Source: Micromonospora pallida (GTDB taxonomy: Bacteria; Actinomycetota; Actinomycetes; Mycobacteriales; Micromonosporaceae). From it: a stretch of 64,000 bases of DNA. Location of the stretch: positions 806,001 to 870,000 of the forward strand of contig NZ_FMHW01000002.1 of NCBI RefSeq assembly GCF_900090325.1. Reading direction: 5' to 3'. The first letter of the stretch is position 1; the number at the start of each line of letters is the position of its first letter. A program made the position numbers and the translations under genes. Below the pieces are notes generated by a model. It was not told the origin of the DNA. It did not search any database and saw nothing but the letters and a program-made list of their open reading frames with translations. This document shows positions 13,689 through 45,661 of this stretch, piece after piece.

Positions 13689-13777
13689 CGGCCTGGAGCG
13701 CGGTGCCGCGTTGCCGCTGGTCCGTTTCTCCAGGCCGCTCGCCGAACCCGCCGTGCGCGTCTCCGCGCAACGGGCTC
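13689..13777 (-). ncRNA. Group II intron domains V and VI
   Basis: Domain V is exactly 34 nt (13777-13744 on minus): a lower stem from GAGCCCG to CGGGTTC, an upper stem GCGCG closed by GAGA with CGCGC, and the usual 2-nt bulge. Domain VI follows as a long hairpin with arms CGGCCTGGAG and CTCCAGGCCG (13737-13689). These form the catalytic and branch-point regions; the exact bulged A cannot be fixed by eye. Confidence 0.85.
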
Positions 13778-13793
13778 TCCACGGTTGCTGTCG

Positions 13794-24917: not shown

Positions 24918-25147
24918 GACACCGTCGGCGGCAAGGCAGGATTCACGCCGCCAGCGTGCCGGAACCACCGAAACCCGACCGGCGACGACACACCCGCCAC
25001 CGCGGCCGCGTCCTCGGTCATCACACCGCGACTGATCGCAGCCCAGAACTTGACCCTGTCCTGACGCCACGCCACCGTCGGTCGCCCCGGCGAAGGGATC
25101 TGACCCCGATACTCCCGAACCCGCTTCTGCCCAGGCCCGTACGCCAT
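24918..25147 (-). pseudogene. IS30-type transposase, N-terminal fragment cut by IS256
   Basis: The start ATG 25147 follows GGTGGAG. About 76 residues (MAYGPGQKRVREYRGQIPSP, then WRQDRVKFWAAISRGVMTED and AAVAGVSSPVGFRWFRHAGG) match the N-terminal helix-turn-helix region of actinobacterial IS30 transposases. The match stops at PPTVS, where the IS256 end begins. The catalytic part is gone. Confidence 0.75.
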
Positions 25148-25194
25148 CGCTCCACCTCTCCGACAAGGTGTTGCGACGACCGGTTGAATCCGTC

Positions 25195-25578
25195 CAGTTC
25201 ACTGTCGTGCGGCAACGGCCGGTGGGCGTGCGTGTCGGTGCGCAGGATGTTGGCCAGCACCACCGCGTCGGCGTGGTCGGATTTCTTGCGTGACACCGAG
25301 TACCGCTCCCGGTAGCGGGCCACCGCCATCGGGTTGATCGAGTACACCTGCCGTCCGCTCGCGCGTAGCGCCGAGACCAGCAGTCCGCGCGGGGTCTCGA
25401 TCGCCACCGGGATCCGGTGGTCGGCGCTGTCGCCGGCGGTGGCCAGCATCTCCACCAGCGTGGTGAATCCGTCCAGGTCGTCACCGATGCGGCCCTTAGC
25501 GACCAGGTGACCGTGCTCGTCGACCAGGGCGATGTCGTGATGCTGTTCCGCCCAGTCGATGCCGCAGTACACCGCCAA
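25195..25578 (-). pseudogene. IS110-family transposase, N-terminal DEDD domain fragment
   Basis: It begins MAVYCGIDWAEQHHDIALVD with the first catalytic Asp (GIDWAE), then AIETPRGLLVSALRASG, and the DHADAVVLANILRTD motif. After residue 128 (PLPHDSEL) homology ends, probably where the IS30-type element inserted. The C-terminal Ser-containing transposase_20 domain is absent. Confidence 0.85.
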
Positions 25579-27421: not shown

Positions 27422-27883
27422 ATGGACGTGCCCCTGCGCAACGTACGTGTGGTCATCGGATCGATCGGCGACGACATTCACGTCGTCGGTATCACGATCC
27501 TCGGGCACGCGCTGCGCAACGCCGGAGCGGAGGTGATCCAGTTGGGCATCCAGACCCCACCGGCGGAGTTCGTCGCGACCGCGGTGGCGGAAGACGCCGA
27601 TGTGGTGATGGTGTCCTCGTCCAACGGCCACGCCGCCATCTGGTGCGACACCCTCCGCGCCGACCTCGACGCCGCAGGCGGCGAGGGCGTCTTGCTCTAC
27701 GTCGGCGGCAACCTCGCCGTCAGCGCGTTCACCCCGTGGGAGGGAACCGAGGCGAGATTCCTCGACATGGGGTTCGACCGTGCCTTCGGCCCGGCCACCC
27801 AGCCCGCCGAGGCCATCCGGGTTCTTGCCGAGGACCTCCGGGCACGCGACACCGACGAGTTCCGGGAGGCCAGCCGTGCCTGA
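27422..27883 (+). CDS. Glutamate mutase-like B12-binding subunit (methylaspartate mutase S family)
   Basis: The protein has 153 residues from ATG 27422 behind GGAACGGAG. It is a complete cobalamin-binding domain: D-x-H-x-x-G at residues 18-23 (DIHVVG) with the lower-ligand His20, then MVSSSNGHA and LLYVGGNLAV in the places of the family SxL and GG motifs. In glutamate mutase this subunit carries adenosylcobalamin and pairs with the large E subunit, which here is the next gene, overlapping by 8 bases. First gene of operon A. Confidence 0.9.
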   Translation: MDVPLRNVRVVIGSIGDDIHVVGITILGHALRNAGAEVIQLGIQTPPAEFVATAVAEDADVVMVSSSNGHAAIWCDTLRADLDAAGGEGVLLYVGGNLAVSAFTPWEGTEARFLDMGFDRAFGPATQPAEAIRVLAEDLRARDTDEFREASRA

Positions 27884-29360
27884 GCTACCAAGCAACGAAA
27901 AGATCGAACTTGCCGACTTTCTCCGGCGACGCGAGCGGGTCTTCCGGGAGCAGTTGGACCGGGAGCCGTACGACCTGGACGAGTGCACCGCCTGGGCCGT
28001 GCGCAACGCGCAACGCGGCACCATGAGCGGCCTGCTGGCCGATGCCAAGGCCGCCGGGGGAACGGTGGTTGTCCCGCGGGCCGGCGTGGCCACGATGGAC
28101 GGCCAGCGCGCGCTCATGCGGGAACTGGACGAGGCAGGCGCCGGGGTGCTGCCCATCACCGTCGACAGCCTCACCCGCGAACTCAAGTTCGACGAGGCCG
28201 CTCGCCGGCTGGCGGCGAGCACCGCAACCGACTCCCAGCTCAACGGGTTCCCCATCGTGGCACACGGCATCGACGCCACCCGCGAACTCATCGCCAGCTT
28301 CGACAAGCCGGTCATCATCAGAGCCAACGCCGTGGACCTGCGCATCGTCGCCGAGACCGGTCTCGCCGCAGGCGGCACCGCGTTCGTCTCCGGGCCGATG
28401 TACGCCACGCTCGAGTACTCCAAGCACACGAGTCTGGCCGAGTCGATCCCGAAGTGGCAGTACGTGTTCCGGTTGCTCGGCCACTACACGGAGGCCGGGG
28501 TACCCGCCGGCGACGACGCGGTCGGATTCGCCCAGAGCGGCACCTGCTCGGTCCCGTCGCTCATGCTCGTCGGCACCGTAATAGACGCGCTCATCATGGC
28601 AGGGCAGGGCGTGAAGCACATCATGCCGTACGCCATGTTGCAGGGAAACATCGCCCAGGACGTGGCCTGCTGTCTCGCCTCGGAGGCGCTGACCCAGGAG
28701 TATCTGCGCCGGCTCGGCTTCGACGACGTGACAACCTACGTTGCCTCCAGCGACTGGAACGGTGCCTTTCCGCGGCGGACTCCCGACGCCTATGGGCTGA
28801 TCGCCGCCAACATCGTCGCGGCCGCGATCGCCAAAGCCCCGCTGAACTACGTCAAGACGATCGAGGAGGGGATCGGGGTACCGACAGCGGCGGCCAACGC
28901 GGCCAGCATCCGGGTCACCCGATACCTCCTGCGGCTCATCGGTCTGCAGGCCGACTCGCTGCGCTCACCGGACGTGCAGTTCGAATTCGACCTCATCCTC
29001 CTGCAGGCCCGTGCCATCCTCGACGCGGTGCTCGACGCCGGCGACGGTGATCCGGTCCGAGGAGCGGTCCGTGCCCTCGAGCTCGGCGTCCTGGATATCC
29101 CGTTCTCACCCAACATTCACGTCAAGGGCAACGTCCTGCCCATCCGGGACGCCGCCGGAGCGGTCCGCTTCCTCGACCACGGCAACCTGCCCATCCCCGC
29201 GGAGGCGACCCGGTTGGAGGCGGAACGGCTGGCCCGCAGGCGCGGAGACGGACCGGAGCTGTCCTACCAGGACATGATCGACGACCTGCAGTTCCTCGAA
29301 CTGGATCCCCCTCCGGCCACCACACCGGCCGGCCCCACCTCGGCAAGGACACGTGCCTGA
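27876..29360 (+). CDS. Glutamate mutase-like large (E) subunit with altered substrate pocket
   Basis: The protein has 494 residues from GTG 27876 behind GGGAGG; the family is usually ~480. TIM-barrel mutase core: GVLPITVDSLTRELKFDEA, LNGFPIVAHGIDATRELI, KWQYVFRLLGHYTEAGV, GVKHIMPYAMLQGNIAQD, GIGVPTAAANAASIRVT. The pairing with a B12 subunit is that of methylaspartate mutase, which rearranges glutamate to 3-methylaspartate by a radical mechanism. From memory, true GlmE has RHGTPDSR and NEGGGISYN at the substrate site. Here the aligned stretches read RANAVDLR and FVSGPMYAT, so the Glu that contacts the substrate amino group is missing. I infer a different substrate, perhaps one without an amino group. 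Confidence 0.85.
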   Translation: MPELPSNEKIELADFLRRRERVFREQLDREPYDLDECTAWAVRNAQRGTMSGLLADAKAAGGTVVVPRAGVATMDGQRALMRELDEAGAGVLPITVDSLTRELKFDEAARRLAASTATDSQLNGFPIVAHGIDATRELIASFDKPVIIRANAVDLRIVAETGLAAGGTAFVSGPMYATLEYSKHTSLAESIPKWQYVFRLLGHYTEAGVPAGDDAVGFAQSGTCSVPSLMLVGTVIDALIMAGQGVKHIMPYAMLQGNIAQDVACCLASEALTQEYLRRLGFDDVTTYVASSDWNGAFPRRTPDAYGLIAANIVAAAIAKAPLNYVKTIEEGIGVPTAAANAASIRVTRYLLRLIGLQADSLRSPDVQFEFDLILLQARAILDAVLDAGDGDPVRGAVRALELGVLDIPFSPNIHVKGNVLPIRDAAGAVRFLDHGNLPIPAEATRLEAERLARRRGDGPELSYQDMIDDLQFLELDPPPATTPAGPTSARTRA

Positions 29361-30115
29361 TGCCCGACCTGAACTCCTGGGACACCTCCGTCACCGACAT
29401 CGCCCAAGGCGTGATCGCCTATCGCGGCACGCCGATCGGTGAGGTCATCGAGGAAGCCGACCTTGCCGACGCGCTCTGGCTGGTCCTCTTCGGCCACGAG
29501 TCGTCGCCCGGCGGGGTGGACGCGCTCCGCCGGGCGCTGATCGCCGCGCTCGACCACGGGGTGGCGGCACCATCCACCCTGGTATCCCGGGCCACCGCGT
29601 CGACCCGAGGCGCGCTGCCGCTGTCGATCGCGGCCGGGCTCATCGCCTTCGCCGGCCCCGCGCACGGCGGCGCGGCCGAGGCCGCAGCCGAGTTGTTTGT
29701 GCAGATCGCCGACCTGGGCGGCACCGAAACGGCGGTATCGACCGTGGTGTCGGCGGAGCTGACCGCGGGGCGCCGGGTTCCCGGCTACGGACACCCGTAC
29801 CACGATCGGGATCCCCGGGTGCCGGCGCTGATGAACGGCATCGAGCCGACGCGTACGCACCGGGACATCGCGGGTGCGGTGGAGCGGGCCCTTCTGGCCG
29901 AGACCGGCAAACCGCTGTACATGAACGCCGACGCCGCGGTCGGGGCGCTCCTGCTGGACGCGGGACTCGGCGCAGCGGAGGTCACTCTGGTGACAGCGCT
30001 CGGCCGGGCCGTGGGGCTGGCCGCCCACGCGCGGGAGGAACGCCTCAACGAGAAGCCATTCCGGGCACCCGCGCTGACTACCGTGCACTTCCATCCAACC
30101 GCGGAGACGTCGTGA
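29360..30115 (+). CDS. Citryl-CoA lyase-like protein (short citrate synthase family)
   Basis: The protein has 251 residues; ATG 29360 shares bases with the preceding TGA. It has citrate-synthase fold motifs: TSVTDIAQGVIAYRGTPIGE, catalytic-type His in DHGVAAPST (about residue 73), His in GYGHPYHDRDPR (about 137), and an Asp in NADAAVG. It lacks the large N-terminal part of true citrate synthase, as citryl-CoA lyases do. Such enzymes cleave or form a hydroxy-acyl-CoA by retro-Claisen chemistry. With the CoA ligase genes that follow, it recalls the two-step citryl-CoA synthetase plus lyase system. The substrate here need not be citrate. Confidence 0.8.
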   Translation: MPDLNSWDTSVTDIAQGVIAYRGTPIGEVIEEADLADALWLVLFGHESSPGGVDALRRALIAALDHGVAAPSTLVSRATASTRGALPLSIAAGLIAFAGPAHGGAAEAAAELFVQIADLGGTETAVSTVVSAELTAGRRVPGYGHPYHDRDPRVPALMNGIEPTRTHRDIAGAVERALLAETGKPLYMNADAAVGALLLDAGLGAAEVTLVTALGRAVGLAAHAREERLNEKPFRAPALTTVHFHPTAETS

Positions 30116-31305
30116 GCAAACTGTTCGAGCATGAGGTGAAGGAGCTGCTGTCCTGCGTCGGCGTCGCGGTGCCGGAGGGGATGCTGGTCAACCCCGACGG
30201 CGAGCAGGGCGTCATCGATGCCACCGCGCCGGGCCCCTTCTTCGTCAAGGCACAGGTCGCGGTGGGGGACCGGGCCACGGCGGGTGGAGTGCTGCGGGTC
30301 GACACGCTCGCCGAGGCCCGCGCCGCCGCCGCCGACATCCTCGGCCGCCGGATCCGCGGGTCGCTGGTCGAGTGCGTGCTCGTGGAGCGCGCGGTGCTGG
30401 GCGCGTGGTTCGGGTACGCCGCCGTCACCATCGCCGAGGACCCGCCCCGGCGGATGCTGGTCTTCTCCACCACTGGCGGGGGTGGTTTCGACCCGTCCAC
30501 GGCGGAGGTCCAACTGGCCCTCACCGATGGACCGCAGGGCTACCGGATCCGCCGGGAACTACGCCGGATCGGCATCGACTCCGCCCAGTTACCGGCCATC
30601 ACCAGCTACCTGGAAAAGCTGGTCGACTGTGCGCTGCGGTGGTGCGCCTACACGCTGGAGACCAACCCGGTGACGTACGCGGACGGTCGCGTAGTCGCCT
30701 TGGACGCCAAGGCCGAACTGGACGACTACTCCAAGAAGCTGCTCCCGCGACCGGAGTTGCTCAACCGCCCCGAGCAGGATGCGCGGGAGCGGGCGGCCCG
30801 GGACTGCCAGCAGACCGACCATCGGGGGAGCCTGCGATATGTCCAGCTGGTCGCCGAACCCGACCGGGCGGGGCCGGTGCAGGTGGCCTCGCACTCGGTG
30901 GGGGGCGGCGAGTCGATGGTCGTACTCGACGCGCTCGCCGCGGCCAACCTGGTCGCCACCAACTACTGCGACACCTCCGGCTCCCCCTCCGAGGAGAAAG
31001 TGGCCACCGGAGCCGCTCTGGTGGCCGGGCAGTCCCACATCGACGGACTGTTTTTCTCCACCTGCATCGCCAACCAGCCGCTGGCGGTGACGGCCAGAGG
31101 GCTCGTCCGAGGCTGGGAGGACGTGGGCTGGCGCGGCCCCACCGTGGTCCGATTCGCCGGCAACCAGTCGGCGGAGGCCCGCGACATCGTCCAGGACTGG
31201 GCCCGGAGGCGGGGGGTTCCGATCGACACCGTCGGTGAGGAGACCGACGAATGGGAGGCGGCACGGCGGTTGGCCGTCCTGCTCACGAAGGTGGACGCGC
31301 TATGA
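30112..31305 (+). CDS. SucC-like CoA-ligase beta subunit (ATP-grasp)
   Basis: The protein has 397 residues, overlapping the previous gene by GTGA. ATP-grasp features: FFVKAQVAVGDRATAGGVLR, metal-binding LETNPVTYADGRVVALDAKA, and a C-terminal CoA-ligase domain (GGGESMVVLDALAAANLVAT). It diverges clearly from housekeeping SucC, for instance in a long linker around 220-260. It partners the SucD-like protein downstream. Role inferred: NDP-forming activation of a di- or tricarboxylate to its CoA thioester. Confidence 0.85.
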   Translation: MSKLFEHEVKELLSCVGVAVPEGMLVNPDGEQGVIDATAPGPFFVKAQVAVGDRATAGGVLRVDTLAEARAAAADILGRRIRGSLVECVLVERAVLGAWFGYAAVTIAEDPPRRMLVFSTTGGGGFDPSTAEVQLALTDGPQGYRIRRELRRIGIDSAQLPAITSYLEKLVDCALRWCAYTLETNPVTYADGRVVALDAKAELDDYSKKLLPRPELLNRPEQDARERAARDCQQTDHRGSLRYVQLVAEPDRAGPVQVASHSVGGGESMVVLDALAAANLVATNYCDTSGSPSEEKVATGAALVAGQSHIDGLFFSTCIANQPLAVTARGLVRGWEDVGWRGPTVVRFAGNQSAEARDIVQDWARRRGVPIDTVGEETDEWEAARRLAVLLTKVDAL

Positions 31306-32261
31306 CCTTCCTCATCGACCGGGACACCCGGGTGCTGATCCAGGGCATCACCGGCACGCTCGGCCGCTTCGTGGTGTCGATGATGGCCGGGGCCGGACTG
31401 GCGCCGGTGGCCGGAGTCACTCCGGGACGGGGCGGCACCAGCGTGGACGGCGTACCCGTCTTCGACACGATCGACGAGGCCAGGCGGGCCACCGGCGCGG
31501 ACGCGTCGCTTGTCCTCGTTCCGGCCGCCGGTCTGCGCGACGCGGTCCTGGAGGCGATCGACGAGCGGCTGTCGACCGTGGCCCTGATGGTCGACGGTGT
31601 CCCGCTCGGGCTCAGTCTGGACCTGATCTCGGCGGCCGCTGACGCCGGGGTGACCCTGGTCGGGCCGAACAGTCCCGGTGTCATCGCACCCGGCCGATGT
31701 CTGCTCGGAGCGCTGGACCCGCGTCGGTTCACCCCCGGCCGCGTGGCCATCGTCTCCCGCAGCGGCGGCATGATGTCGACGCTGGCGCATACTCTGACCG
31801 CAGCCGGATTCGGCCAGTCAACGTGTGTCGGCATCGGCGGGGACAGCGTGATCGGCCTGGACATGCCGGCCGCGCTGCGCCTCGCCGAGGCGGATCCGGA
31901 CACGGACGCGACCGTGGTGTTCGGCGAGATCGGGACCACGCAGGAGGAGCGGGTCGCGGCGCTGATCGCGGCGGGCCAGCTGACGAAGCCGATCGTGGTC
32001 TACATCGCCGGTCGGGCCGCGCCGCCGGGCATCCGGTACAGCCATGCCGGGGCCCAGTCCGAGGGGAACCGGGGCACGGCCGCGTCGAAGATCGAAACCC
32101 TGCGAACCGCCGGTGCGTTGATCGCCGAGCGCTACACCGACGTGCCCCGGCTGTTGGCCCGTGCCAGGCTGAGCGCCGGAGCCGGCGCGGCCATCGGGTC
32201 CAGCGGAGGCGACGCCACAGCGGGCGGCGCATCCACCGGGTCCACCGCGGGACGTGGGTGA
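31302..32261 (+). CDS. SucD-like CoA-ligase alpha subunit
   Basis: The protein has 319 residues from ATG 31302 (ATGA overlap). It has a CoA-binding Rossmann N-half (RVLIQGITGTLGRFVVSMMA), GPNSPGVIAPG and VAIVSRSGGMMSTLAHTLTA as in SucD, and the phosphohistidine loop as RYSHAGAQSEGNRGTAASKI (His around 247). The tail (GGDATAGGASTGSTAGRG) is a disordered extension. The catalytic His is present, so it should be functional with the SucC-like subunit. Confidence 0.88.
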   Translation: MTFLIDRDTRVLIQGITGTLGRFVVSMMAGAGLAPVAGVTPGRGGTSVDGVPVFDTIDEARRATGADASLVLVPAAGLRDAVLEAIDERLSTVALMVDGVPLGLSLDLISAAADAGVTLVGPNSPGVIAPGRCLLGALDPRRFTPGRVAIVSRSGGMMSTLAHTLTAAGFGQSTCVGIGGDSVIGLDMPAALRLAEADPDTDATVVFGEIGTTQEERVAALIAAGQLTKPIVVYIAGRAAPPGIRYSHAGAQSEGNRGTAASKIETLRTAGALIAERYTDVPRLLARARLSAGAGAAIGSSGGDATAGGASTGSTAGRG

Positions 32262-32264
32262 GCT

Positions 32265-33296
32265 ATGGCACGCGCCCGCCAGCCCAAGACCGACGCGGAC
32301 GTGGCGGCGCTGCTGGATGCCGTCACCACGGGTACGCCATGGGTGGTCGGCAGACTGCTCTCGCTTGCCGAGGATCCGGCCTCGGCGCGTGTTCTGGCCC
32401 GGGCACTGTCAACTGCGGCGGAGGGTCGTGCACCTCCGGCGGAGGGCGCCACACCTGCGGCGGAGGGCGGTGGTCCACACGTCGTCGGGATAACCGGGCC
32501 GCCGGGGGTGGGCAAATCGAGCATTGTCTCCGCGCTGCTGCGGGCGATGCGGCGCGACGGGCTGCGGGTCGCCGTTCTCGCGGTTGATCCGTCCTCTCCG
32601 TACAGTGGCGGCGCGCTGCTCGGCGACCGTACGCGAATGCGCGAGCACGCCACCGATCCGAACGTCTTCATCCGCTCCCTGTCCAGCCAGGGACAGCTCG
32701 GTGGCCTGTCGCGCGCCGCGCCGCTGGCCCTGCGCGTGCTGGGGGTGGCCGGGTTCGACGTGATCATCATCGAGACCGTCGGGGTCGGGCAGTCCGAAGT
32801 GGATGTCGCAGACGCGGCGGACACCGTGGTGGTGGCACTCGCGCCCGGTGCGGGGGACGAACTGCAGGCCGCCAAGGCCGGCGTACTGGAGATCGCCGAC
32901 ATCTTCGTCGTGAACAAGGCCGATCTGCCGGACGCCGCCCGGGTGGTGCGCCAGCTCCGGCGGACAGCGTCGCTGAACGGGACTGACACGGCGCCCGCCG
33001 GATGGCGCCCGATGGTCGTCCGGACGGTTGCGTCGGCCGACGACGTGGCCGAGCTGCGTGCGGCCGTGGCCGCACATCGGACGCATCTCGACAGGTCGGG
33101 AAGCCGCGCGCGGCGACGGGCTCAGCGCACCGCCGCGGCCGTACGCGCGGCAGCGCTGCACCGGTGCGACGAGCTGTTGCGCGGGGACGACGCGGGTGTG
33201 GTGGCCGAGCTTGCCGGGCGGGTGGGCCGCGGCGAACTGGACGTGTACGCCGCGGCTGACCTCCTGGTCGCGCGGCTGAGCACTTCGTTCCGCTGA
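32265..33296 (+). CDS. MeaB/ArgK-type G3E GTPase
   Basis: The protein has 343 residues from ATG 32265, three bases after the SucD-like stop. Walker A GPPGVGKSS (about residue 80), VAVLAVDPSSPYSGGALLGD, TVGVGQSEVDVADAADTVVV and NKADLPD mark the MeaB family, GTPase chaperones that load and protect adenosylcobalamin mutases. The usual partner is methylmalonyl-CoA mutase; here it ends an operon begun by a glutamate-mutase-like pair, which implies that this mutase is the client. Last gene of operon A. Confidence 0.92.
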   Translation: MARARQPKTDADVAALLDAVTTGTPWVVGRLLSLAEDPASARVLARALSTAAEGRAPPAEGATPAAEGGGPHVVGITGPPGVGKSSIVSALLRAMRRDGLRVAVLAVDPSSPYSGGALLGDRTRMREHATDPNVFIRSLSSQGQLGGLSRAAPLALRVLGVAGFDVIIIETVGVGQSEVDVADAADTVVVALAPGAGDELQAAKAGVLEIADIFVVNKADLPDAARVVRQLRRTASLNGTDTAPAGWRPMVVRTVASADDVAELRAAVAAHRTHLDRSGSRARRRAQRTAAAVRAAALHRCDELLRGDDAGVVAELAGRVGRGELDVYAAADLLVARLSTSFR

Positions 33297-33420: not shown

Positions 33421-34656
33421 ATGACACTGTGTGAAGGCACGTCGGGCCGCTGGTCGGTCCGCGGCCGGACCGGACTTCGGGTCGTGGCCATGGCCGCGGC
33501 CGCCCTGCTCTTCACGGCATGTGGATCGACAGGCGAACCCGCCGGCTCGAACGGCTCAGGCTCCACCTCCGGCCCCATCAAGGTCGGGGTGCTGCAGTCG
33601 ATCACCGGCACGCTGGCGCCGTACGGCATCGCCGAGCAGCGCGCCACCGAGATCGCGATCGACCAGATCAACAAGCAGGGCGGCATCAACGGCCGCCAAC
33701 TCGAAATGGTCTTCTACGACCCGGCCGGCGACACCGCCAAGGCCGTACAGCTGACCCGGCGCCTCATCGACCAGGACAAGGTCGACGTGGTGGTCGGCGG
33801 CGGCACCTCCAGCGGCATCGCCCTGGCGATGAAACCGCTGCTCCAGCAGGCCGGCATCTTCTTCATGTCCACCGAGGCGGCCGAGAACATCGTCGCCCCG
33901 GCGGCCGAGTCCCCGCTGACGTTCGCGACCACGCTCTCCACCAGCATCGTGACCGCGGCGATGTTCAACCACCTGAAGCAGAAGGGCATCACCAAGGCGG
34001 GCATCCTCGGTGACAGCACGGCGTACGGCCAGGCCGGCGTCACCTCGGCCGAGGCCGCCGCGAAGGCTGCCGGCATCGAGTTGGTCAAAGCCACCTACGA
34101 TCCTGCGGCGACCGACCTGACCCCGGACATCAACAAGCTCACCGCGGCCGGCGCCAAGGCGTGGATCAACTGGACCTCCGGCCCGTCCGCGGTCCTGTTC
34201 ATGAAGAACGTGGCGAGCCTGGGGCTGGCCGCGCAGGGGCCGATCATGTGCTCGTTCACCTACTCGAACCCGGCGCTCATGAAGCAGGCGGGTGAGGCGA
34301 GCAAGGGCGTGACCGTGGCGGGCGTCAAGGCGACCGTGCTCGACTCGCTACCGGCGTCGGACCCTCAGAAGGCGCCGCTCGACAAGATGGCCGCCGATCT
34401 GAAGTCGAAATACAACGAGGAAGCCACCATCTACGCCTCGCAGACCTACGACGCGCTCAACGTGACCGCGGAGGCGATCAAGAAGGCCGGCAGCACCAAG
34501 GGCACGGACGTGGCCAAGGCGATGGAGGGCCTCAGCTTCGTCGGCACCCAGGGCACCTACAACTACAGCGCCACCGACCACCGCGGGCTCGACCCGTCCG
34601 TCCCGATCCTGATGATGTGGGACGGAACCACCTTCAAGCTGGAAACGACGAGCTGA
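33421..34656 (+). CDS. livK: Branched-chain-type ABC substrate-binding lipoprotein (importer 1)
   Basis: The protein has 411 residues from ATG 33421 after GGAGGAGCGG. Signal peptide with lipobox (AALLFTAC, Cys near 38), then a Gly/Ser linker and a Leu/Ile/Val-binding-protein fold (IKVGVLQSITGTLAPYGIAE, QGGINGRQLEMVFYDPAGDT, VVVGGGTSSGIALAMKPLLQ). This family binds amino acids, amides, urea and aromatic or aliphatic carboxylates. Co-regulation with the mutase operon suggests it delivers the substrate for that pathway. Confidence 0.9.
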   Translation: MTLCEGTSGRWSVRGRTGLRVVAMAAAALLFTACGSTGEPAGSNGSGSTSGPIKVGVLQSITGTLAPYGIAEQRATEIAIDQINKQGGINGRQLEMVFYDPAGDTAKAVQLTRRLIDQDKVDVVVGGGTSSGIALAMKPLLQQAGIFFMSTEAAENIVAPAAESPLTFATTLSTSIVTAAMFNHLKQKGITKAGILGDSTAYGQAGVTSAEAAAKAAGIELVKATYDPAATDLTPDINKLTAAGAKAWINWTSGPSAVLFMKNVASLGLAAQGPIMCSFTYSNPALMKQAGEASKGVTVAGVKATVLDSLPASDPQKAPLDKMAADLKSKYNEEATIYASQTYDALNVTAEAIKKAGSTKGTDVAKAMEGLSFVGTQGTYNYSATDHRGLDPSVPILMMWDGTTFKLETTS

Positions 34657-34660
34657 CCCG

Positions 34661-35533
34661 ATGGACAAGGTGCTGCAGATCATCGTCACCGGTCTCGGAG
34701 CGGGCGCGATCTACGCCATCATCGGGATGGGCTTCAACGTGGTGTTCAAGGCCACCCGCGTAGTCAACTTCGCGCACGGCCAGTACCTCGTCGTGGCGGG
34801 CGTGCTGGCGTCGACCCTGCAGCGCACCTTGGGCTGGCCACTGATTCCCACGATCCTCGTCGTGCTCGTCGTGGGAACTGTGCTCGGCCTGGCGACCGAC
34901 GCGGTCGCGATCAGGATGTTGCGGCGCCCCGACCCCATCACGGTGACCATCGCAACCGTGGCTGTCGGCATCGTCATCGAGGCGGTCGTCCTCAAGGTGA
35001 CCGCCGGCAAGACGTACGGGTTGGACGAGTGGCCGGGCCTGAGTTTCCCCCTCGGCCCGGTCACCGTCAGCTCACAAACGACCTGGAACATCCTCCTCGC
35101 CGGGGTGCTCGCCTTCCTCGTACACAGCTTCTTCACCCGGACCCGGCGCGGGATCGCGCTCCAGGCCGGTGCCGACGATCCCGCGACCGCGACCCTGTTC
35201 GGCGTCTCCCACTCGACCACCACCTTCTGGACCTTCGGCATCGCCGGCCTGCTGGGCGGGATCGCCGGCCTGGCGATGACACCGGTCACGCTCGTCGCGT
35301 TCAGCACCGGCTTCCTGTTCGCCCTCAAGGGCTTCACCGCCGCCATCCTCGGCGGCCTCGGCAGCACCAAGGGCGCACTGGTCGGCGGCTTGATCATCGG
35401 TCTCACCGAGGCTCTCGTGGCCACCTATTTCAGCAGCACCTACGCACCCGCTGTCGCGTTCGGAGTCCTTCTGGTCGTGCTGGTCTTCCGGCCGTCCGGG
35501 CTGTTCAAGGAGTTGGCCGTTGAACGGGTTTAG
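34661..35533 (+). CDS. livH: LivH-type ABC permease (importer 1)
   Basis: The protein has 290 residues. It is a polytopic membrane protein with family marks: GAIYAIIGMGFNVVFKATRV, NFAHGQYLVVAGV, the cytoplasmic EAA-like loop (RTRRGIALQAGADDPATATL), and the final FRPSGLF. Four bases separate it from the binding-protein stop. Confidence 0.93.
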   Translation: MDKVLQIIVTGLGAGAIYAIIGMGFNVVFKATRVVNFAHGQYLVVAGVLASTLQRTLGWPLIPTILVVLVVGTVLGLATDAVAIRMLRRPDPITVTIATVAVGIVIEAVVLKVTAGKTYGLDEWPGLSFPLGPVTVSSQTTWNILLAGVLAFLVHSFFTRTRRGIALQAGADDPATATLFGVSHSTTTFWTFGIAGLLGGIAGLAMTPVTLVAFSTGFLFALKGFTAAILGGLGSTKGALVGGLIIGLTEALVATYFSSTYAPAVAFGVLLVVLVFRPSGLFKELAVERV

Positions 35534-36554
35534 CAACCTTCTGTCCACCAGCCGGGCCATCGTCGGCGGGCCGTTCGTGGTGGTAGCCGTTCTGCTGGTG
35601 CTGGGCGGCACCGCGGACTCCGGCTATGACTACGGAGCCACATCGACGCTCTGCATCAACCTTGTCGCCCTGATCGGCCTCAACCTCATCGCCGGTCACG
35701 CCGGCCAACTGGTGCTCGGATACGCCGCCCTCATGGCGGTCGGTGCGTACACCGTGGCCGTCGCGGGTACCGACCACGGCCTGTCCGGACCGGTCACGCT
35801 GCTGCTCGCGCCGGCCCTCGGCGCGCTGCTCGCGGTCGTCATCGGCGTCCCGACGCTGCGGCTGCGCGGCCTCTACTTCGGCGTCGGCACCCTGGCCTTC
35901 GCCGTCATCGTCGACTTCTTCAACAACCGGGCGGTTCCGATCACCGGGGGACCGGACGGCAAGTTGGTCGGCCCGCTGACCATCGGGATCCGCAACTACT
36001 CGAACCCGGAGGACTTCTTCTACTTCACCCTCGCCATCACCGCGGCCGTCCTCGTCTTCGAGCGGCTGTTCGTCCGTACCTGGACCGCCTGGGGTCTGAA
36101 GGCGGCACGCACGTCGGAGCCGGCCGCCGCGAGCGCGGGGGTGCCGATCTTCTCCGCCCGGCTCGGCACCTTCGCTCTCTCCGGAGCGATCGCCGGGCTG
36201 GCCGGGGCCCTGCTGGCCTACCAGACGCTCTACGTGAGCCCGTCGAGCTTCACCCTCCACGAGTCCATCGACCTGTTCGTCGTGCTCTTCGTCGGCGGCA
36301 TGGCCACCTTCGTCGGACCGATCGTCGGCGCGGCCATCCTGTACGTCTTCACCCGCTGGCTGGCTCCCTACCCGGAGCTCAAACCGTTACTGCTCGGCAT
36401 GGTGTTCCTGGTGGCGCTGCGGTTCCTGCCCGGCGGCGTCGGTGCGGCCCTCAACAAACTGCGGGCCCTTGTCCGGGCCCGGCGCCGCCCGCCCGGGACC
36501 CCGAACCGCGCGGCGAAGGAATCCGCCTCCGTCCCAGCCGGAGTCAGCTCATGA
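35520..36554 (+). CDS. livM: LivM-type ABC permease (importer 1)
   Basis: The protein has 344 residues from TTG 35520, chosen because AAGGAG lies eight bases before it; it overlaps livH by 14 bases. Membrane protein with LNLIAGHAGQLVLGYAALMA, PTLRLRGLYFGVGTLAFAVI and the coupling loop (WGLKAARTSEPAAASAGVPI). The C-terminal ~30 residues are a basic cytoplasmic tail. Confidence 0.92.
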   Translation: MNGFSNLLSTSRAIVGGPFVVVAVLLVLGGTADSGYDYGATSTLCINLVALIGLNLIAGHAGQLVLGYAALMAVGAYTVAVAGTDHGLSGPVTLLLAPALGALLAVVIGVPTLRLRGLYFGVGTLAFAVIVDFFNNRAVPITGGPDGKLVGPLTIGIRNYSNPEDFFYFTLAITAAVLVFERLFVRTWTAWGLKAARTSEPAAASAGVPIFSARLGTFALSGAIAGLAGALLAYQTLYVSPSSFTLHESIDLFVVLFVGGMATFVGPIVGAAILYVFTRWLAPYPELKPLLLGMVFLVALRFLPGGVGAALNKLRALVRARRRPPGTPNRAAKESASVPAGVSS

Positions 36555-37291
36555 GTCACCTCGAAGTCGTCGACATCCGCAAGCGTTTCGGCGGGCTGGA
36601 AGTACTGCATGGCGTCTCGATGCGGGCGGAGATGGGGCGGGTCACCGCCCTGATCGGGCCCAACGGCGCCGGCAAGAGCACGCTTGCCAACATCATCTCC
36701 GGGTACGTCCGGGCCGACTCCGGCCGGGTCGTCTTCGCCGGGCACGACCTCACCCGCAAACGGGTCCACCAACGGGCCGCGCTCGGTCTCGGTCGTACCT
36801 TCCAGAATCTGGAGCTGTTCCACGGCATGAGCGTTGCGGAGAACGTGACCCTCGGCCGCTACCGGTCGGCCAGGCTGCGCTGGTTCACCGGCCCCGGCCG
36901 GCACGACGCGCCCGCGGTGACCGAGGCGCTGCGCACGCTCACCCTCGCGGACCAGCGGGACCAGGACGTCGGTTCCCTCTCCTTCGGACGGGCGAAGATG
37001 GTCGAGCCGGCCCGGGTCGTCGTGGCCGAGCCGTCCATGATCGTCATGGACGAGCCCGCGGCCGGTCTCACCTCGGCCCGCAAGGCGGCGTTCGGCCACT
37101 GGATACGCGGCCTGCTCAGCCCCACTACCGGCGTGGTCCTCATCGAACACGACATGCAACTGATCATGAGCGTGTCGGACTACATCTACGTCCTCGACCA
37201 CGGCGTCCTGATCGCCGACGGAACACCGGACGAGGTACGCCGCAACGACAAGGTCCGCGAGGCCTACCTGGGCACGGGAGAAGAGGCATGA
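36551..37291 (+). CDS. livG: LivG-type ABC ATPase (importer 1)
   Basis: The protein has 246 residues, ATGA overlap with livM. Walker A GPNGAGKST, Q-loop region GRTFQNLELFHGMSV, a degenerate signature LSFGRAKMVEPARVV (usually L-S-[YG]-G-x-x-[RQ]), Walker B MIVMDEPAAGL, and switch His in LIEHDM. The altered signature still keeps the key Ser and Gly, so activity is likely. Confidence 0.93.
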   Translation: MSHLEVVDIRKRFGGLEVLHGVSMRAEMGRVTALIGPNGAGKSTLANIISGYVRADSGRVVFAGHDLTRKRVHQRAALGLGRTFQNLELFHGMSVAENVTLGRYRSARLRWFTGPGRHDAPAVTEALRTLTLADQRDQDVGSLSFGRAKMVEPARVVVAEPSMIVMDEPAAGLTSARKAAFGHWIRGLLSPTTGVVLIEHDMQLIMSVSDYIYVLDHGVLIADGTPDEVRRNDKVREAYLGTGEEA

Positions 37292-38040
37292 CCGCGCTGC
37301 TCGAGGTCGATGACCTACACGTCCGGTACGGGCGCATCCCGGTCGTACACGGGATCAGCTTCACCGTCCCCGAGGGCCGCGTCGTCGGGCTGCTCGGCGC
37401 CAACGGGGCCGGCAAGAGCACGACGATGCGGGCGATCATGGGCCAGCGCTCGGCAACCGGGCGGGTTCGCTTCGACGGCACGCCGATCGACTCCCTCGCA
37501 CCCCACAAGATCGTGGCTCGGGGGATCGCCCTGGTGCCCGAGGGTCGGCTCGTGTTCAAGACGCTCACCGTGGAGAAGAACCTGCGGATGGGTGCGTACG
37601 CCCTGGGGCGTACCGCCTTCTGGCAGGCCGAGGCTGGCATCGACGAGGTGCTCACCCTCTTTCCCGAGTTGAAGCCGCTGCTGCGGCGGGAGGCCGGGGA
37701 ACTCTCCGGCGGGCTGCAGCAGATGCTGGCCCTCGGTCGGGCCCTGATGGCCCGGCCCCGGCTGCTCGTCCTCGACGAGCCGTCACTCGGCCTCGCCCCC
37801 CTGGTGATCGAGCGCATCTACGAGGCGGTCCTGCTGCTCAAGTCGCGGGGTACCTCGATCCTGCTGGCCGAGCAGAACGCCCGGCTGGCCCTGCGCTCCG
37901 TCGACTACGCCTATGTGCTCCAAACCGGACAGATCGTAGAGCAGGGAGATTCCGAGTTTCTGCGTTCGTCCAGCCGGGTCGAAGAGATCTACCTGGGCGG
38001 CGATGTCGAGTCCTCCACTCCATCGCCCACCGCGTCCTGA
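37288..38040 (+). CDS. livF: LivF-type ABC ATPase (importer 1)
   Basis: The protein has 250 residues from ATG 37288 (ATGA overlap). Walker A GANGAGKST, signature LSGGLQQMLALGRAL, Walker B LLVLDEPSLGLAP, and LLAEQNARLAL in place of the switch His, which is normal for LivF. It completes the first importer. Confidence 0.94.
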   Translation: MTALLEVDDLHVRYGRIPVVHGISFTVPEGRVVGLLGANGAGKSTTMRAIMGQRSATGRVRFDGTPIDSLAPHKIVARGIALVPEGRLVFKTLTVEKNLRMGAYALGRTAFWQAEAGIDEVLTLFPELKPLLRREAGELSGGLQQMLALGRALMARPRLLVLDEPSLGLAPLVIERIYEAVLLLKSRGTSILLAEQNARLALRSVDYAYVLQTGQIVEQGDSEFLRSSSRVEEIYLGGDVESSTPSPTAS

Positions 38041-41578: not shown

Positions 41579-43069
41579 ATGACAGAGGCGGCAAGCAGGC
41601 GTACGAGCATCAACCTGGTCACGGAGATGACCATCGACGGGGCGGCGATGGCCGGAACCGGTGAGGAGATCACGGTCTGGAACCCGGCGACCGGCGGAGT
41701 CCTCGGCACGGTGGTCGGCGCGTCCGCCGACCAGTTGGAAACGGCCATCGCGGCGGCCCGGCGGGCCTTCGATTCAGGCCCCTGGCCCCGCATGTCGGGG
41801 GCCGAGCGGGCGGCGGCCATGCATCGCATCGCCGACCAGATGGAGAAGCATCGCGACGACCTGGTTGCCGCGATCGTCTCCGAGGCCGGGACGCCGGTGA
41901 CCACCGCGGAGGCGCTGCAGTTCGAGGTGCCGCTGCGAATCCTGCGCTGGAACGCGGACGCGGCCGCGCGGGACCGGCGGGAACATCTCGGGCCGGACTT
42001 CGAGATCCTGCCGAGCGTCAGCTACGTCGACTACCGGCCGATCGGGGTGGTCGGGGCGATTGCGGCCTACAACTACCCGCTGCACCTGATCCTGCTCAAG
42101 ATCGGGGCTGCCCTCGCCGCGGGCTGCACGGTCGTTGCCACGCCCTCCCCCCGTACCCCGTTCGCCACTCTGTTGCTCGGCAAACTCATCCGGGAGGCGG
42201 GTCTGCCACCGGGCGTGGTCAACATCGTTGCTGGCGGGCTCGACGTCAGCCGGACGCTGACCACTCACCCGTCCATCGACAAGGTCAGCTTCACTGGCTC
42301 CGCCGAGGTGGGCAAGCGGGTGATGAGCCAGGCGGCCGAGTCGCTCAAGGACGTGGTCCTGGAACTGGGTGGGAAGTCGCCCAACATCATCCTGCCGGGC
42401 ACCGACCTGACCACCCTGGTCGCACCCGTGCACATGCGGTACTCGCGCAACGCCGGGCAGGGGTGCGCCTCGCCCACCCGGCTGCTGGTGCACGAGAGCC
42501 AACTGGACGAGTTCGTCGAGCGATCGAGCCACATGTGGCCCACCATGAAGGTCGGCGATCCGTGGGAGCGGGACACCCTGGTCGGGCCCCTCATCCGGTC
42601 GGAGCACCGAGATCGAGTCGCGTCCTATGTGGATGACGCGGTGGCCGAGGGTGCCACGGTTCTCGCCGGCGGTGGCCGGCTGGACATCGACGGTGGCTGG
42701 TTTTATTCCCCGACCCTGCTCGGTGGGGTCGACTCGCGGGCCCGGGTGGCCCAGGAGGAGATCTTCGGCCCCGTCGCGGTCCTGCTGAGCTACTCCGACG
42801 TGGACGAGGCGGTACGCCTGGCCAACGACGTGACGTACGGCCTGGCCGCCTACATCTTCGGCCCCCTGCAGGAGGCGCTCGAGGTGGCGCCCCGGCTACA
42901 GGCGGGGATCGTCCAGATCAACGGGGGCGGCAGCATGCGCCCCGACGCCCCGTACGGCGGATTCAAGGCCAGCGGCATCGGCCGCGAGATCGGTGAAGCC
43001 GGGATTCGCGAGTACCTCGAACCACAGCACGTGCAGTTCGCAACGGCCCAACCGGGCCGGGCAGTCTGA
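41579..43069 (+). CDS. NAD(P)-dependent aldehyde dehydrogenase
   Basis: The protein has 496 residues from ATG 41579. Catalytic Cys in NAGQGCASPTR, general-base Glu in LELGGKSPNI, NAD motif FTGSAEVGKRVM, PYGGFKASGIGRE near the end. Normal full length. It oxidises an aldehyde to an acid; substrate not predictable. The 34-base gap to the phosphatase gene suggests the same transcript. Confidence 0.93.
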   Translation: MTEAASRRTSINLVTEMTIDGAAMAGTGEEITVWNPATGGVLGTVVGASADQLETAIAAARRAFDSGPWPRMSGAERAAAMHRIADQMEKHRDDLVAAIVSEAGTPVTTAEALQFEVPLRILRWNADAAARDRREHLGPDFEILPSVSYVDYRPIGVVGAIAAYNYPLHLILLKIGAALAAGCTVVATPSPRTPFATLLLGKLIREAGLPPGVVNIVAGGLDVSRTLTTHPSIDKVSFTGSAEVGKRVMSQAAESLKDVVLELGGKSPNIILPGTDLTTLVAPVHMRYSRNAGQGCASPTRLLVHESQLDEFVERSSHMWPTMKVGDPWERDTLVGPLIRSEHRDRVASYVDDAVAEGATVLAGGGRLDIDGGWFYSPTLLGGVDSRARVAQEEIFGPVAVLLSYSDVDEAVRLANDVTYGLAAYIFGPLQEALEVAPRLQAGIVQINGGGSMRPDAPYGGFKASGIGREIGEAGIREYLEPQHVQFATAQPGRAV

Positions 43070-43089: not shown

Positions 43090-43860
43090 ATGTTGCTGGA
43101 GAATCGAATCGCACTGATCACCGGTTCCGGATCGGGGATGGGTCGGGCCAGCGCGGTCAAGATGGCCGGCGAGGGCGCGATGGTCGTCGTGGCCGACGTG
43201 AACCTCGACGGTGCCGAGGAAACCGTGGCGCGGATCAAGGACGCCGGTGTGGGCGACGCGGTCGCCTACCGGATCGACGTGAGTGACGTGTCGCAGATCG
43301 ACGGCATGTTCGACTTCGTCGGCCGGGAGTACGGGCGGCTCAACGTGCTCTTCAACCACGTGGGCACCCCCGGGCCGGCCGGACTGAACGTGTCGGAGGC
43401 GGAGTTTGCCCGCACGATCGACCTGAACATGAAGAGCGCCTTCTACTGCACGCGGGCCGGGGAGAAGCTGCTCCGAGCAGCCGCCGGCCAGGCATCGGTG
43501 ATCTTCACGTCGTCCATCAGCGGGATGGTGGGCTCCCTGTTCAGCCCGCTCTATTCCATGGTCAAGGGTGGGATCGTCGGCTTCACCCGGGCGTTGGCGC
43601 TGTCACTGGCCCCGGACATCCGGGTCAACGTGATCTGCCCCGGTGCCGTCGACACCCCGATGCTCAACGGATTCTTCGGGCGGGACCCGGACTCAGACCC
43701 GAAGGCCAACGTGAAGATGTTCATCGAGACGTCGGTGCCGCTGCGTCGTCTGTCCACCGCGGAGGAGATCGCAGACGCGGCCGTGTTCCTGGCGAGCGAC
43801 CGGTCGAGCTTCATCACAGGACTGGCGATGCCGATCGACGGCGGCTATACAGCACGTTGA
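43090..43860 (+). CDS. Short-chain dehydrogenase/reductase
   Basis: The protein has 256 residues, ATG after GAAGGAGCC. TGxxxGxG as ITGSGSGMGRA, VVADVN (Asp favours NAD), catalytic Ser in FTSSISG and Tyr-Lys in YSMVKGG, C-terminal PIDGGYTAR. Likely an alcohol dehydrogenase acting before the aldehyde dehydrogenase or on a hydroxyacyl intermediate. Confidence 0.92.
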   Translation: MLLENRIALITGSGSGMGRASAVKMAGEGAMVVVADVNLDGAEETVARIKDAGVGDAVAYRIDVSDVSQIDGMFDFVGREYGRLNVLFNHVGTPGPAGLNVSEAEFARTIDLNMKSAFYCTRAGEKLLRAAAGQASVIFTSSISGMVGSLFSPLYSMVKGGIVGFTRALALSLAPDIRVNVICPGAVDTPMLNGFFGRDPDSDPKANVKMFIETSVPLRRLSTAEEIADAAVFLASDRSSFITGLAMPIDGGYTAR

Positions 43861-43916: not shown

Positions 43917-44516
43917 ATGAGTACGCAGGCAGGAGACGGCGTTCCCGGACGCCGGGAGGAGATTTTCGGCGTAGCCGCGGAAATCTTCTGGACCAAGGGT
44001 TACCACGCTACGTCGATGAACGACGTCGCGGACGCGATGGGCATGCGCAAGCCCTCGCTCTACCACCACGTCAAGAACAAGGAGACCCTGCTCTACGAGA
44101 TGTCTGTGTCGAGCATGCACCACATCATCGACGCAGCCCTCTCCGCCGCGAATCCCGATCCGGAAACGCACCTGCGCGAGATCATCATCCGGCATGTCGA
44201 GGCGTTGCTGATGGACCGGAGCCGGCACGCGACCGCGCTGGTCGAGTTGCGTTCGCTCTCGCCCGAGCAGCGCCAGCACGTCACCTCGATGCGCCGCAGC
44301 TACGACAAGCTCATCGACGAGGCGATCGGCGCGGTGCAAACCGAATCCGGTCGGTGGTCCGGCATGCCCACCCATACCGTGCGCCTGGCCCTGCTCGGGA
44401 TGCTCAACTGGACTGTCTTCTGGTTCCGGCCCGAGGGACCGGAGACGCCCGAGCACATCGCGCGCGAATTCTGCCGCATCTTCATGCCGGGGGGCTCCGA
44501 AAGGTCATCGCCGTAA
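43917..44516 (+). CDS. TetR-family regulator, candidate repressor of operons A and B
   Basis: The protein has 199 residues from ATG 43917 (AAGG nine bases upstream); GTG 43908 is an alternative without a site. N-terminal helix-turn-helix: EIFGVAAEIFWTKGYHATSM, NDVADAMGMRKPSLYHHVKN. The C-terminal ligand domain resembles regulators of fatty-acid and CoA-ester catabolism. It is embedded in operon B, and is the closest candidate for the two identical operators at 27369 and 33342. Ligand probably an acyl-CoA of the pathway; inference. Confidence 0.9.
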   Translation: MSTQAGDGVPGRREEIFGVAAEIFWTKGYHATSMNDVADAMGMRKPSLYHHVKNKETLLYEMSVSSMHHIIDAALSAANPDPETHLREIIIRHVEALLMDRSRHATALVELRSLSPEQRQHVTSMRRSYDKLIDEAIGAVQTESGRWSGMPTHTVRLALLGMLNWTVFWFRPEGPETPEHIAREFCRIFMPGGSERSSP

Positions 44517-45661
44517 TGCCCAGGAGTATTTTCGAGGCGGACCACGAGGACTTCCGGCAGACCGTCCGCAAGTTCGTGCAGTCGCACGTGATGCCCAACT
44601 ACGCACGCTACTGCGAGCAGCGGCTCATCGATCGGGAGCTGTGGCTGGCCGCGGGCGAGCTCGGCCTGCTCGGGCTGCACGTGCCGGAGGCCTACGGCGG
44701 CAGCGAGGCGGGGGACTGGCGGTTCACCGCGGTCGTCCTGGAGGAGCTGTCGAGCTTCAGCAGCGGTCTGTCGTCGAGCTTCGGGATCCACTGCGACATC
44801 GTGGCGCCCTACCTGTGCGAGCTCACCACGCCCGAGCAGAAGCAGCGGTGGCTGCCCGGGTTCGCCTCCGGTGAGTTGATCAGCGCGATCGCCATGACGG
44901 AGCCGAGCGGCGGCAGCGACCTCGCCAATCTCCGTACCTCGGCCATGCGGACGGACGACGGCTGGATCCTCAACGGGTCGAAGACCTTCATCACCAACGG
45001 TTCCCGGGCGGACCTGGTGGTGGTGGCGGCCCGCACCGGGGTCGGCCGGCCGTCGCAGTGCATCTCCCTGTTCGTCGTCGAACGGGACACACCCGGCTTA
45101 ACCCGCGGGCAAAAGCTCGACAAGGTCGGCCAGGAGGAGTCTGACACGGCCGAACTGTTCTTCGACGACGCGGTGGTCCCGTTGGACAACCTCATCGGTG
45201 AGCCCGGGCGGGGCTTTCCGCACATGATGGAGCGGCTCACCCAGGAGCGGCTCAACTGCGCCGTCTCGAACCTCGCCCACGCTCAGTCCGTGTTCGACCA
45301 GACGCTCGCGTACGTGAAGTCCCGGAAGGCGTTCGGCTCGCCCATCGGCAGCTTCCAGCACAACCGGTTCACCATGGCCGAGATGGCCACCTCGCTGGAC
45401 GTGACCCGCTCGTTCCTGCACGACTGCGTCATGGCGCACGTCGAGGGCGAGTTGACCAACGTGCAGGCGGCCAAGGCGAAGTGGTGGTCGGCCCAGGTGC
45501 AGAACGAGGTGCTCGACCACTGCGTGCAGCTCTTCGGTGGCTACGGCTACATGCGGGAGACACCGGTCGCCCGCGCCTGGCTGGACGGCCGGGTGTCGAA
45601 GATCTGGGCGGGCACGAACGAGATCATGAAGGAGCTTGTTGGCCGTGACCTCGGTCTCTGA
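44516..45661 (+). CDS. Acyl-CoA dehydrogenase
   Basis: The protein has 381 residues; ATG 44516 shares a base with the TetR stop (TAATG). FAD-binding AMTEPSGGSDLANL and FITNGSRADLVVV, C-terminal QLFGGYGYMRETPVARAWLD and WAGTNEIMKEL. The Glu common before GTN is Ala here; instead TQERL around residue 243 offers a Glu at the long-chain/isovaleryl-type position. Electrons go to ETF; EtfAB are encoded at 53119-54878. Confidence 0.93.
   Translation: MPRSIFEADHEDFRQTVRKFVQSHVMPNYARYCEQRLIDRELWLAAGELGLLGLHVPEAYGGSEAGDWRFTAVVLEELSSFSSGLSSSFGIHCDIVAPYLCELTTPEQKQRWLPGFASGELISAIAMTEPSGGSDLANLRTSAMRTDDGWILNGSKTFITNGSRADLVVVAARTGVGRPSQCISLFVVERDTPGLTRGQKLDKVGQEESDTAELFFDDAVVPLDNLIGEPGRGFPHMMERLTQERLNCAVSNLAHAQSVFDQTLAYVKSRKAFGSPIGSFQHNRFTMAEMATSLDVTRSFLHDCVMAHVEGELTNVQAAKAKWWSAQVQNEVLDHCVQLFGGYGYMRETPVARAWLDGRVSKIWAGTNEIMKELVGRDLGL

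Follow-up and report, generated by a model that had tools for sequence, protein, structure and literature searches.

We examined a 64,000-nucleotide stretch of the Micromonospora pallida genome (contig NZ_FMHW01000002.1, positions 806,001 to 870,000; hereafter the window) and found six plus-strand genes at 27422-33296 that encode a two-subunit B12-dependent mutase of the glutamate mutase (GlmE) type, a short citrate-synthase-like lyase, a two-subunit acyl-coenzyme A (CoA) ligase and a MeaB-type chaperone. The mutase belongs to a branch that keeps the carboxylate grip of glutamate mutase and has lost its amine grip, which points to a different substrate. Judged by sequence, the operon would work like glutamate mutase in a first, rearranging step and like citryl-CoA synthetase/lyase in the cleavage that follows. 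On balance we hold that a mutase acting on a hydroxy-diacid with no amino group feeds CoA activation and retro-Claisen cleavage, and the operon would then be a catabolic module that reworks the carbon skeleton of a dicarboxylic acid lacking an α-amino group. The gene positions, order and identities given by an earlier reading of the letters and open reading frames (the original prediction) are borne out by Pfam and NCBIfam matches:

27422..27883, plus strand, mutS-like B12-binding subunit, 153 amino acids (PF02310, NF002612; homologues in the same place in loci L014-L018, described below)
27876..29360, plus strand, mutE-like catalytic subunit, 494 amino acids (GTG start, overlaps mutS)
29360..30115, plus strand, short citrate-synthase-like acyl-CoA lyase, 251 amino acids (PF00285, 133.5)
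30112..31305, plus strand, sucC-like ATP-grasp subunit of an acyl-CoA ligase, 397 amino acids (PF08442)
31302..32261, plus strand, sucD-like ligase subunit, 319 amino acids (PF02629, PF00549)
32265..33296, plus strand, meaB, MeaB-type GTPase chaperone (TIGR00750 291, cut-off 240.75)

Adjacent genes overlap by 1-8 bases or are separated by a gap of 3 bases. All six have clear family matches, and four of the proteins (MutE-like, lyase, SucC-like and SucD-like) each score below the curated NCBIfam cut-off of the nearest named enzyme. The MutS-like subunit carries the DxHxxG motif as DIHVVG and exceeds the cut-offs of PF02310 and of the methylaspartate mutase subunit S model NF002612 (147.7 bits, cut-off 110), falling just below that of TIGR01501 (130.1, cut-off 135.8). 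The MutE-like subunit, the single MutE of its genome, aligns over its full length to GlmE (1.3e-79) and scores 371 bits against PF06368 (cut-off 26.6) and 334.6 against the glutamate mutase model TIGR01503, below the 390.1 required. We place the mutase in the GlmE superfamily, probably apart from glutamate mutase itself since the defining residue fails, and the ligase and lyase in their superfamilies rather than with any named member.

A mutase profile built from 22 sequences and a two-peptide-pattern scan of 84,980 species genomes, which relatives lacking the patterns could escape, returned seven loci: six of the same mutase clade (L014-L019) and one distant relative (L020). The order mutS-mutE-lyase-sucC-sucD, all on one strand, recurs at 55-81% identity in five of the six other clade loci, namely those of a Frankiales metagenome-assembled genome (MAG; L014), an actinobacterial MAG (L015) and three Acrocarpospora (L016-L018), so that it reflects more than chance, in keeping with the claim of the original prediction that the genes form a coherent operon. 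MeaB lies inside the operon only in the window and L015 among the clade loci. In the protein database, the clade accounts for 65 of 83 mutase matches (at least 50% identity), and at least 20 of 64 clade-mutase clusters seem to share their longest contig with one of 99 lyase clusters, a rough lower bound inferred from equal lengths. Samples of related taxa contained clade-level matches in 1 of 396 genomes of the phylum (its own, with 5 more weak), 1 of 232 in the order of L019, 1 of 166 in the order of L015 and 3 of 297 in the family of Acrocarpospora (3 more weak), and yielded only loci already found by the species-genome scan. None of 90 congeneric genomes encodes a close lyase (best match 4.5e-27 and 33%; own gene 6.3e-159). 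Because its distribution is rare and patchy, the operon has probably been spread or acquired horizontally.

To compare substrate pockets, residues were numbered by alignment to 6h9e and 21 sites were tallied, omitting one row in the wrong frame (xL067); the classical side is represented by the best 120 of 7962 MutE relatives of one query. In glutamate mutase, according to the excerpted text of PMC9545868, R66 and R149 bind the glycyl part of the substrate and E171 its amine, and R100 and Y177 hold the acrylate part. The arginine claw is kept throughout the clade (R66 and R100 in 64/65, R149 in 65/65, the remainder being gaps), as are Y181 (65/65) and K326 and E330 (63/65 each, with 2 gaps), so that the clade shares with the solved enzymes 1ccw, 1i9c and 6h9e the two subunits, the claw and these three residues. 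At position 171, 64 of the 65 clade sequences have Val and one has Phe, against Glu in all 120 classical sequences; among the 18 more distant mutase matches, 12 have E171 and 6 another residue. Seven further positions that are invariant in the classical sample (H150, G151, T152, Y177, N178, L219 and T220) are replaced in every clade member, including H150 by A/G, G151 by N, Y177 by A/S, N178 by T/C, L219 by Q and T220 by S/A. Only Y177 among them is a stated substrate contact, and the Tyr found at position 176 in 65/65 clade rows may partly stand in for it one residue earlier. No new positive residue appears at the 21 tallied sites.

Because the arginine claw is kept while the amine grip of E171 is lost, the substrate is very probably a dicarboxylate without an α-amino group, and the clade enzyme is very probably of the glutamate mutase type but not a glutamate mutase. 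In a tree of 52 rows, a single branch separates the 23 E171 rows from the 29 others (SH-like approximate likelihood-ratio test 99), and the V171 clade is supported at 100; this was a quick method applied to hand-picked rows with the pocket columns retained, and it flags a meeting of long branches (the P0066 type with the clade), which leaves the nearest non-E171 type unsure. P0066, P0067 and P0069 represent a third kind of MutE, in which position 171 is Thr and the claw residue R66 is replaced by Leu. A GlmE-type protein lacking E171 also occurs in another, unrelated setting: at L020 (3348-9655) of a Bacillota MAG, MutL and a distant MutE (34%) with Pro at position 171 adjoin a glycyl radical enzyme and the activase of that enzyme.

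The ligase subunits score 113.6 (sucC-like, TIGR01016, cut-off 375.55) and 284.2 (sucD-like, TIGR01019, cut-off 353.2). Their phospho-His motif (GHAGA or SHAGA; SHAGA in the window SucD-like protein) is kept in 6/6 operons. All six operons also have STCIAN in the SucC-like subunit where E. coli SucC has FGGI, which we take to be the succinate-binding loop, and SGGMMST in the SucD-like subunit where E. coli SucD has SGTLTYE; the GGM within it is known from citrate-activating enzymes, a likeness to citryl-CoA synthetase (Ccs). The loss of the succinate loop in every operon agrees with the original prediction, and a succinate-specific ligase was set aside on the replaced loop despite the overall similarity to succinyl-CoA synthetases.

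The lyase scores 143, 125.7, 124.5, 118.5, 60.7 and 56.1 against citryl-CoA lyase models with cut-offs of 261, 212, 245, 193, 323 and 409, and its closest solved enzyme is the citryl-CoA lyase 6hxp (1.8e-27). H102, H145 and D191, presumably catalytic by analogy with citrate synthase, and R153, R216 and R235, presumably binding, are present in 100/100 clade sequences; this sample is the first 100 of 120 listed matches (at least 47%) and omits P0185, a 51% fragment that possibly belongs. The kept residues and the closest structure both agree with the prediction of a citryl-CoA-lyase-like protein. The motif of the catalytic His is GHPYH in 97/100 and GHPVH in 3/100, whereas 6hxp has GHR. GHPYH is also found in 3/3 lyases of relatives of an ammonia-lyase type, whose expected product is pyruvate. 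As in citryl-CoA synthetase/lyase (Ccs/Ccl; 6hxq, 6hxp), the SucC-like, SucD-like and short citrate-synthase-like parts are each a protein of their own; the operon differs from that system in the lyase scores, in the P for R after the catalytic His, in a ligase nearer succinyl-CoA synthetases and in being encoded with a B12 mutase.

Those relatives place the same ligase and lyase beside the classical glutamate enzymes. In G184, a small-genome actinobacterium, lyase-sucD-sucC lies beside mutS-mutL-mutE-methylaspartate ammonia-lyase (L065, 4973-12998), and its congeners G324 and G207 also have the lyase, on the mutE contig in G324 and on a separate contig in G207. The original prediction had named a neighbourhood with methylaspartate ammonia-lyase as evidence against itself; we find one, though it belongs to another lineage, in which the mutase has E171 and the lyase, unlike that of the window, scores above three citryl-CoA lyase cut-offs. 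In clostridia the cleavage is carried out by a citramalate lyase of the CitDEF type, according to the text excerpted from PMC4682846. Most likely the L065 ligase and lyase form and cleave citramalyl-CoA, replacing this enzyme, and L065 probably encodes a form of glutamate breakdown that uses a citramalyl-CoA synthetase/lyase. The ligase/lyase pair resembles a portable tail that cleaves C-C bonds in the products of GlmE-type mutases. As the clade locus has no ammonia-lyase and has lost the amine site, the hydroxyl required by this tail must already be present on the substrate.

In the reaction sequence we propose, MutS/MutE with adenosylcobalamin (AdoCbl) would shift a C2 fragment as in glutamate mutase, converting a 2-hydroxy-2-R-glutarate to a 3-methylmalate-type acid. 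Hydrogen abstraction at C4 would be followed by fragmentation to acrylate and a captodatively stabilized 2-hydroxy radical, and by recombination. The SucCD-like ligase would use ATP and CoA to activate the carboxyl adjacent to the newly formed methyl branch, the citrate-synthase-fold lyase would cleave the β-hydroxyacyl-CoA to propionyl-CoA and a 2-oxo acid (retro-Claisen), and MeaB would load or repair the cofactor. Propionyl-CoA could feed the methylmalonyl-CoA mutase route of the same genome. We tentatively favor R = methyl over R = H, with 2-hydroxy-2-methylglutarate passing through 2,3-dimethylmalate and 2,3-dimethylmalyl-CoA to pyruvate and propionyl-CoA. A tertiary hydroxy acid is preferred because it is not simply oxidizable, so that the route would bypass a tertiary alcohol, because the partners known for citrate-synthase-fold enzymes are ketones (2-oxo acids), not glyoxylate, and because the residues around the claw are smaller or more apolar. 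Like the methylaspartate pathway of glutamate fermentation, as outlined in the available parts of PMC8473912 and PMC4682846, the route would begin with a mutase and end in C-C cleavage of a methyl-branched hydroxy acid; it differs in needing neither deamination nor hydration and in its lyase, which is CitDEF-type in clostridia. Conversion of glutarate to methylsuccinate, a candidate prompted by acyl-CoA dehydrogenase genes near several of the operons, was rejected as its migrating radical would lack stabilization.

The scheme of the original prediction, in which 2-hydroxyglutarate passes through 3-methylmalate and 3-methylmalyl-CoA to glyoxylate and propionyl-CoA, is the R = H member of the class we favor; its succession of mutase, CoA activation and retro-Claisen cleavage is supported, and the tertiary hydroxy acid fits better than the particular substrate. 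It draws on the same kept claw and lost amine site, and the glutamate mutase site binds (S,S)-tartrate, a hydroxy-diacid, in the excerpted part of PMC9545868. Oxidation of 2-hydroxyglutarate to 2-oxoglutarate would be far cheaper, the claw surroundings have become smaller or more apolar (Y177 to A/S, H150 to A/G, E171 to V), and the aldehyde-forming malyl-CoA lyases known to us have the CitE/HpcH fold rather than the citrate-synthase fold, so that we regard R = H as unlikely, even though glutamate mutase is said to rearrange 2-hydroxyglutarate slowly to 3-methylmalate (Marsh group, about 2000; our literature search did not surface this work). Running the module in the assimilating direction, with propionyl-CoA and a 2-oxo acid condensed, the CoA ester yielding ATP and the mutase forming a straight 2-hydroxyglutarate-type acid, would use steps that are all reversible in principle, and citrate-synthase-fold enzymes condense readily; the adjoining genes, however, look catabolic and import-related, and the genome already has methylmalonyl-CoA mutase for propionyl-CoA, which makes this direction improbable. 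We give as little credence to a larger substituent (homocitrate to 2-methylcitrate, then oxaloacetate and propionyl-CoA) or an unsaturated substrate (2-methyleneglutarate, hydrated later by MaoC or enoyl-CoA hydratase). The binding arginines of the lyase, MaoC genes in the window and enoyl-CoA hydratase genes adjoining L014 and L015 speak for such substrates, but the pocket has gained no positive charge at the tallied sites and the hydratase genes are not conserved in place.

Glutamate as substrate was set aside on the loss of E171 and the missing ammonia-lyase, in agreement with the original prediction that the operon does not serve the classical glutamate route. An ordinary methylaspartate pathway, with a glutamate mutase in the operon, ammonia-lyase and mesaconase encoded elsewhere and the ligase and lyase acting on citramalate, is accordingly very improbable. 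Such an arrangement exists in G184 (and G324 and G207 carry lyase and mutE), class I fumarase, a possible mesaconase, is encoded in 6/7 clade genomes (the 7 including its own) and MutL in 2/7, but the mutase linked to an ammonia-lyase keeps E171 and that of the clade does not. A genuine methylaspartate ammonia-lyase is encoded in only 1/7 clade genomes, unlinked to the operon (G542, other contig); two genomes, its own included, have matches of 27-30 bits and four fall below the cut-off or have none. The best match in its own genome, 27.1 bits (cut-off 27) in a 741-amino-acid frame where genuine enzymes score 319 and 397, is probably another enolase-superfamily protein. The prediction that no mesaconase is present holds for the operon but not for the genome, where a class I fumarase (263.5 bits) lies distant from it and may be an ordinary fumarase; class I fumarases can have mesaconase activity (PMC4682846, in part). 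The MutL and fumarase encoded elsewhere in the genome weigh against the plainest form of the original argument and leave our ranking of the alternatives unchanged.

The two genomes with MutL are the M. pallida genome and G540, and in both it lies away from the operon; in M. pallida it belongs to a lysine 5,6-aminomutase cluster. In this cluster (L097, 5488-9552, outside the window) the genes for the lysine 5,6-aminomutase subunits (692.8 and 353.1 bits, cut-offs 600 and 280), 3-aminobutyryl-CoA ammonia-lyase and the MutL/GlmL-family protein follow one another, a set of the lysine-fermentation type carried by an actinomycete. The unusual pairing of MeaB, not MutL, with a glutamate-mutase-type enzyme is as predicted: the operon MeaB scores above its family cut-off and is encoded with a GlmE-type mutase, and its gene position suggests that it serves that mutase. 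A second full-length MeaB elsewhere in the genome, 48% identical to the operon MeaB, adjoins MM_CoA_mutase and a glyoxalase-family, epimerase-like gene; the operon MeaB is 56% identical to the operon MeaB of L015. The window operon differs from glutamate mutase loci in having MeaB in place of MutL and in its want of an ammonia-lyase gene, and the clade mutase differs in the loss of E171, in the further changes near the claw and in its score below the equivalog cut-off.

Several observations weigh against the pathway as we propose it. The Solirubrobacterales MAG locus L019 has a clade MutE (53%) alongside a short-chain dehydrogenase (SDR) and an aldehyde dehydrogenase; mutS is absent from the 15 kb examined, and the lyase is absent at E<=1e-15 from this genome, whose completeness is unstated, so that the mutase may also work without the ligase/lyase pair. 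The core scheme leaves its recurrent partners unexplained: aldehyde dehydrogenase and SDR1 (L014, L015, L019) and acyl-CoA dehydrogenase (L015-L017), as well as the HydA/HydB of L015 and L019, P450 of L016 and aminotransferase of L014. In sequence, both parts of the ligase resemble solved succinyl-CoA synthetases (1.3e-21, 2.5e-73) more closely than they do citryl-CoA synthetase (1.7e-12, 1.3e-38). The lyase retains all the arginines of oxaloacetate-binding relatives and could itself release oxaloacetate, and GHP occurs in other citrate-synthase-like proteins (L008, L012, L092, P0195, P0201-P0203), which makes the motif a weak argument. The MeaB of L015 is as near to the housekeeping MeaB of the M. 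pallida genome (57%) as to the window operon MeaB (56%), and the MeaB identities in these two genomes show no special chaperone line. The choice of substrate follows chemical logic rather than biochemistry, and a source of 2-hydroxy-2-methylglutarate is not known to us.

There are few AdoCbl carbon-skeleton mutases, and for GlmE-type mutases only the glutamate reaction is established to our knowledge, with 2-methyleneglutarate mutase left aside. A new AdoCbl reaction, a 2-hydroxy-2-methylglutarate mutase or a physiological 2-hydroxyglutarate mutase that opens a dedicated aerobic pathway bypassing tertiary alcohols, is plausible to us but still doubtful. If it is correct, the GlmE family would fall into two halves, one for glutamate (E171) and another, not for glutamate, that is largely unexplored, actinobacteria would possess a new B12 reaction and a branched hydroxy-diacid route, an undescribed mode of breakdown, and MeaB might serve a mutase whose substrates are free acids. 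Databases name many such proteins 'methylaspartate mutase' or 'citrate synthase', which should be read with caution. Among the matches listed in a search of the open-access literature, which left subscription journals outside its scope, none describes the operon, none combines dimethylmalate, 2-hydroxy-2-methylglutarate or 3-methylmalate with a mutase, and no paper on MeaB or MutL with glutamate mutase describes such a system.

Downstream of the operon and on the same strand are a Liv-type importer, phosphoenolpyruvate (PEP)-synthase-like and phosphatase-like genes, aldehyde dehydrogenase, SDRs, a TetR regulator, acyl-CoA dehydrogenases, and genes for a thiolase, an APH-like kinase and a MaoC protein. 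The main features are:

33421..38040, plus strand, Liv-type ATP-binding-cassette importer: binding protein (by Pfam), two permeases, two ATPases
41579..43069, plus strand, aldehyde dehydrogenase (PF00171; 81% L014, 63% L015, 47% L019)
43090..43860, plus strand, short-chain dehydrogenase SDR1 (PF13561; 78% L014, 62% L015, 42% L019)
44504..45661, plus strand, acyl-CoA dehydrogenase (PF00441; 67% L015, 63% L016, 62% L017)
48530-48982 and 51933-52700, MaoC genes

The importer permeases and first ATPase were identified by similarity to Liv genes beside L016-L018, and the second ATPase was read from its translated frame only. This branched-chain-amino-acid-type importer may be a route of substrate uptake. 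Other genes near the clade loci encode a P450 and a luciferase-like monooxygenase (L016), a class III aminotransferase (L014) and, as a recurrent partner shared with the window, an APH-like kinase (L015). In one Acrocarpospora the partner acyl-CoA dehydrogenase is internally truncated (L018, 8867-9458), with the operon retained. HydA/HydB pairs, 62-63% identical, lie near the clade mutases of two lineages (L015, 18142-21415; L019, 4237-9014). The L019 pair looks caprolactamase-like (520 and 237 bits, both below the cut-off of 1000), a hint that the initial substrate could be a lactam or something similar.

Within the window, an APH-like kinase is followed by an acyl-CoA dehydrogenase at 48987-51277, a pairing known from 4-hydroxyacyl-CoA breakdown. 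Secondary metabolism was set aside, as nonribosomal peptide synthetases and polyketide synthases are absent among the scanned window proteins (a subset of the open reading frames), and the large protein upstream of the operon (1161-10334), at 3057 amino acids, is a polymorphic-toxin-like RHS-repeat protein with Hint and AHH-nuclease domains. Also upstream, mobile stretches at 12036-15263 and 23431-25578 carry resolvase/recombinase, group II intron reverse transcriptase, and Mutator and IS110 transposases. A second Liv-type set (binding protein, permease, ATPase) lies towards the window end at 57418-61438.

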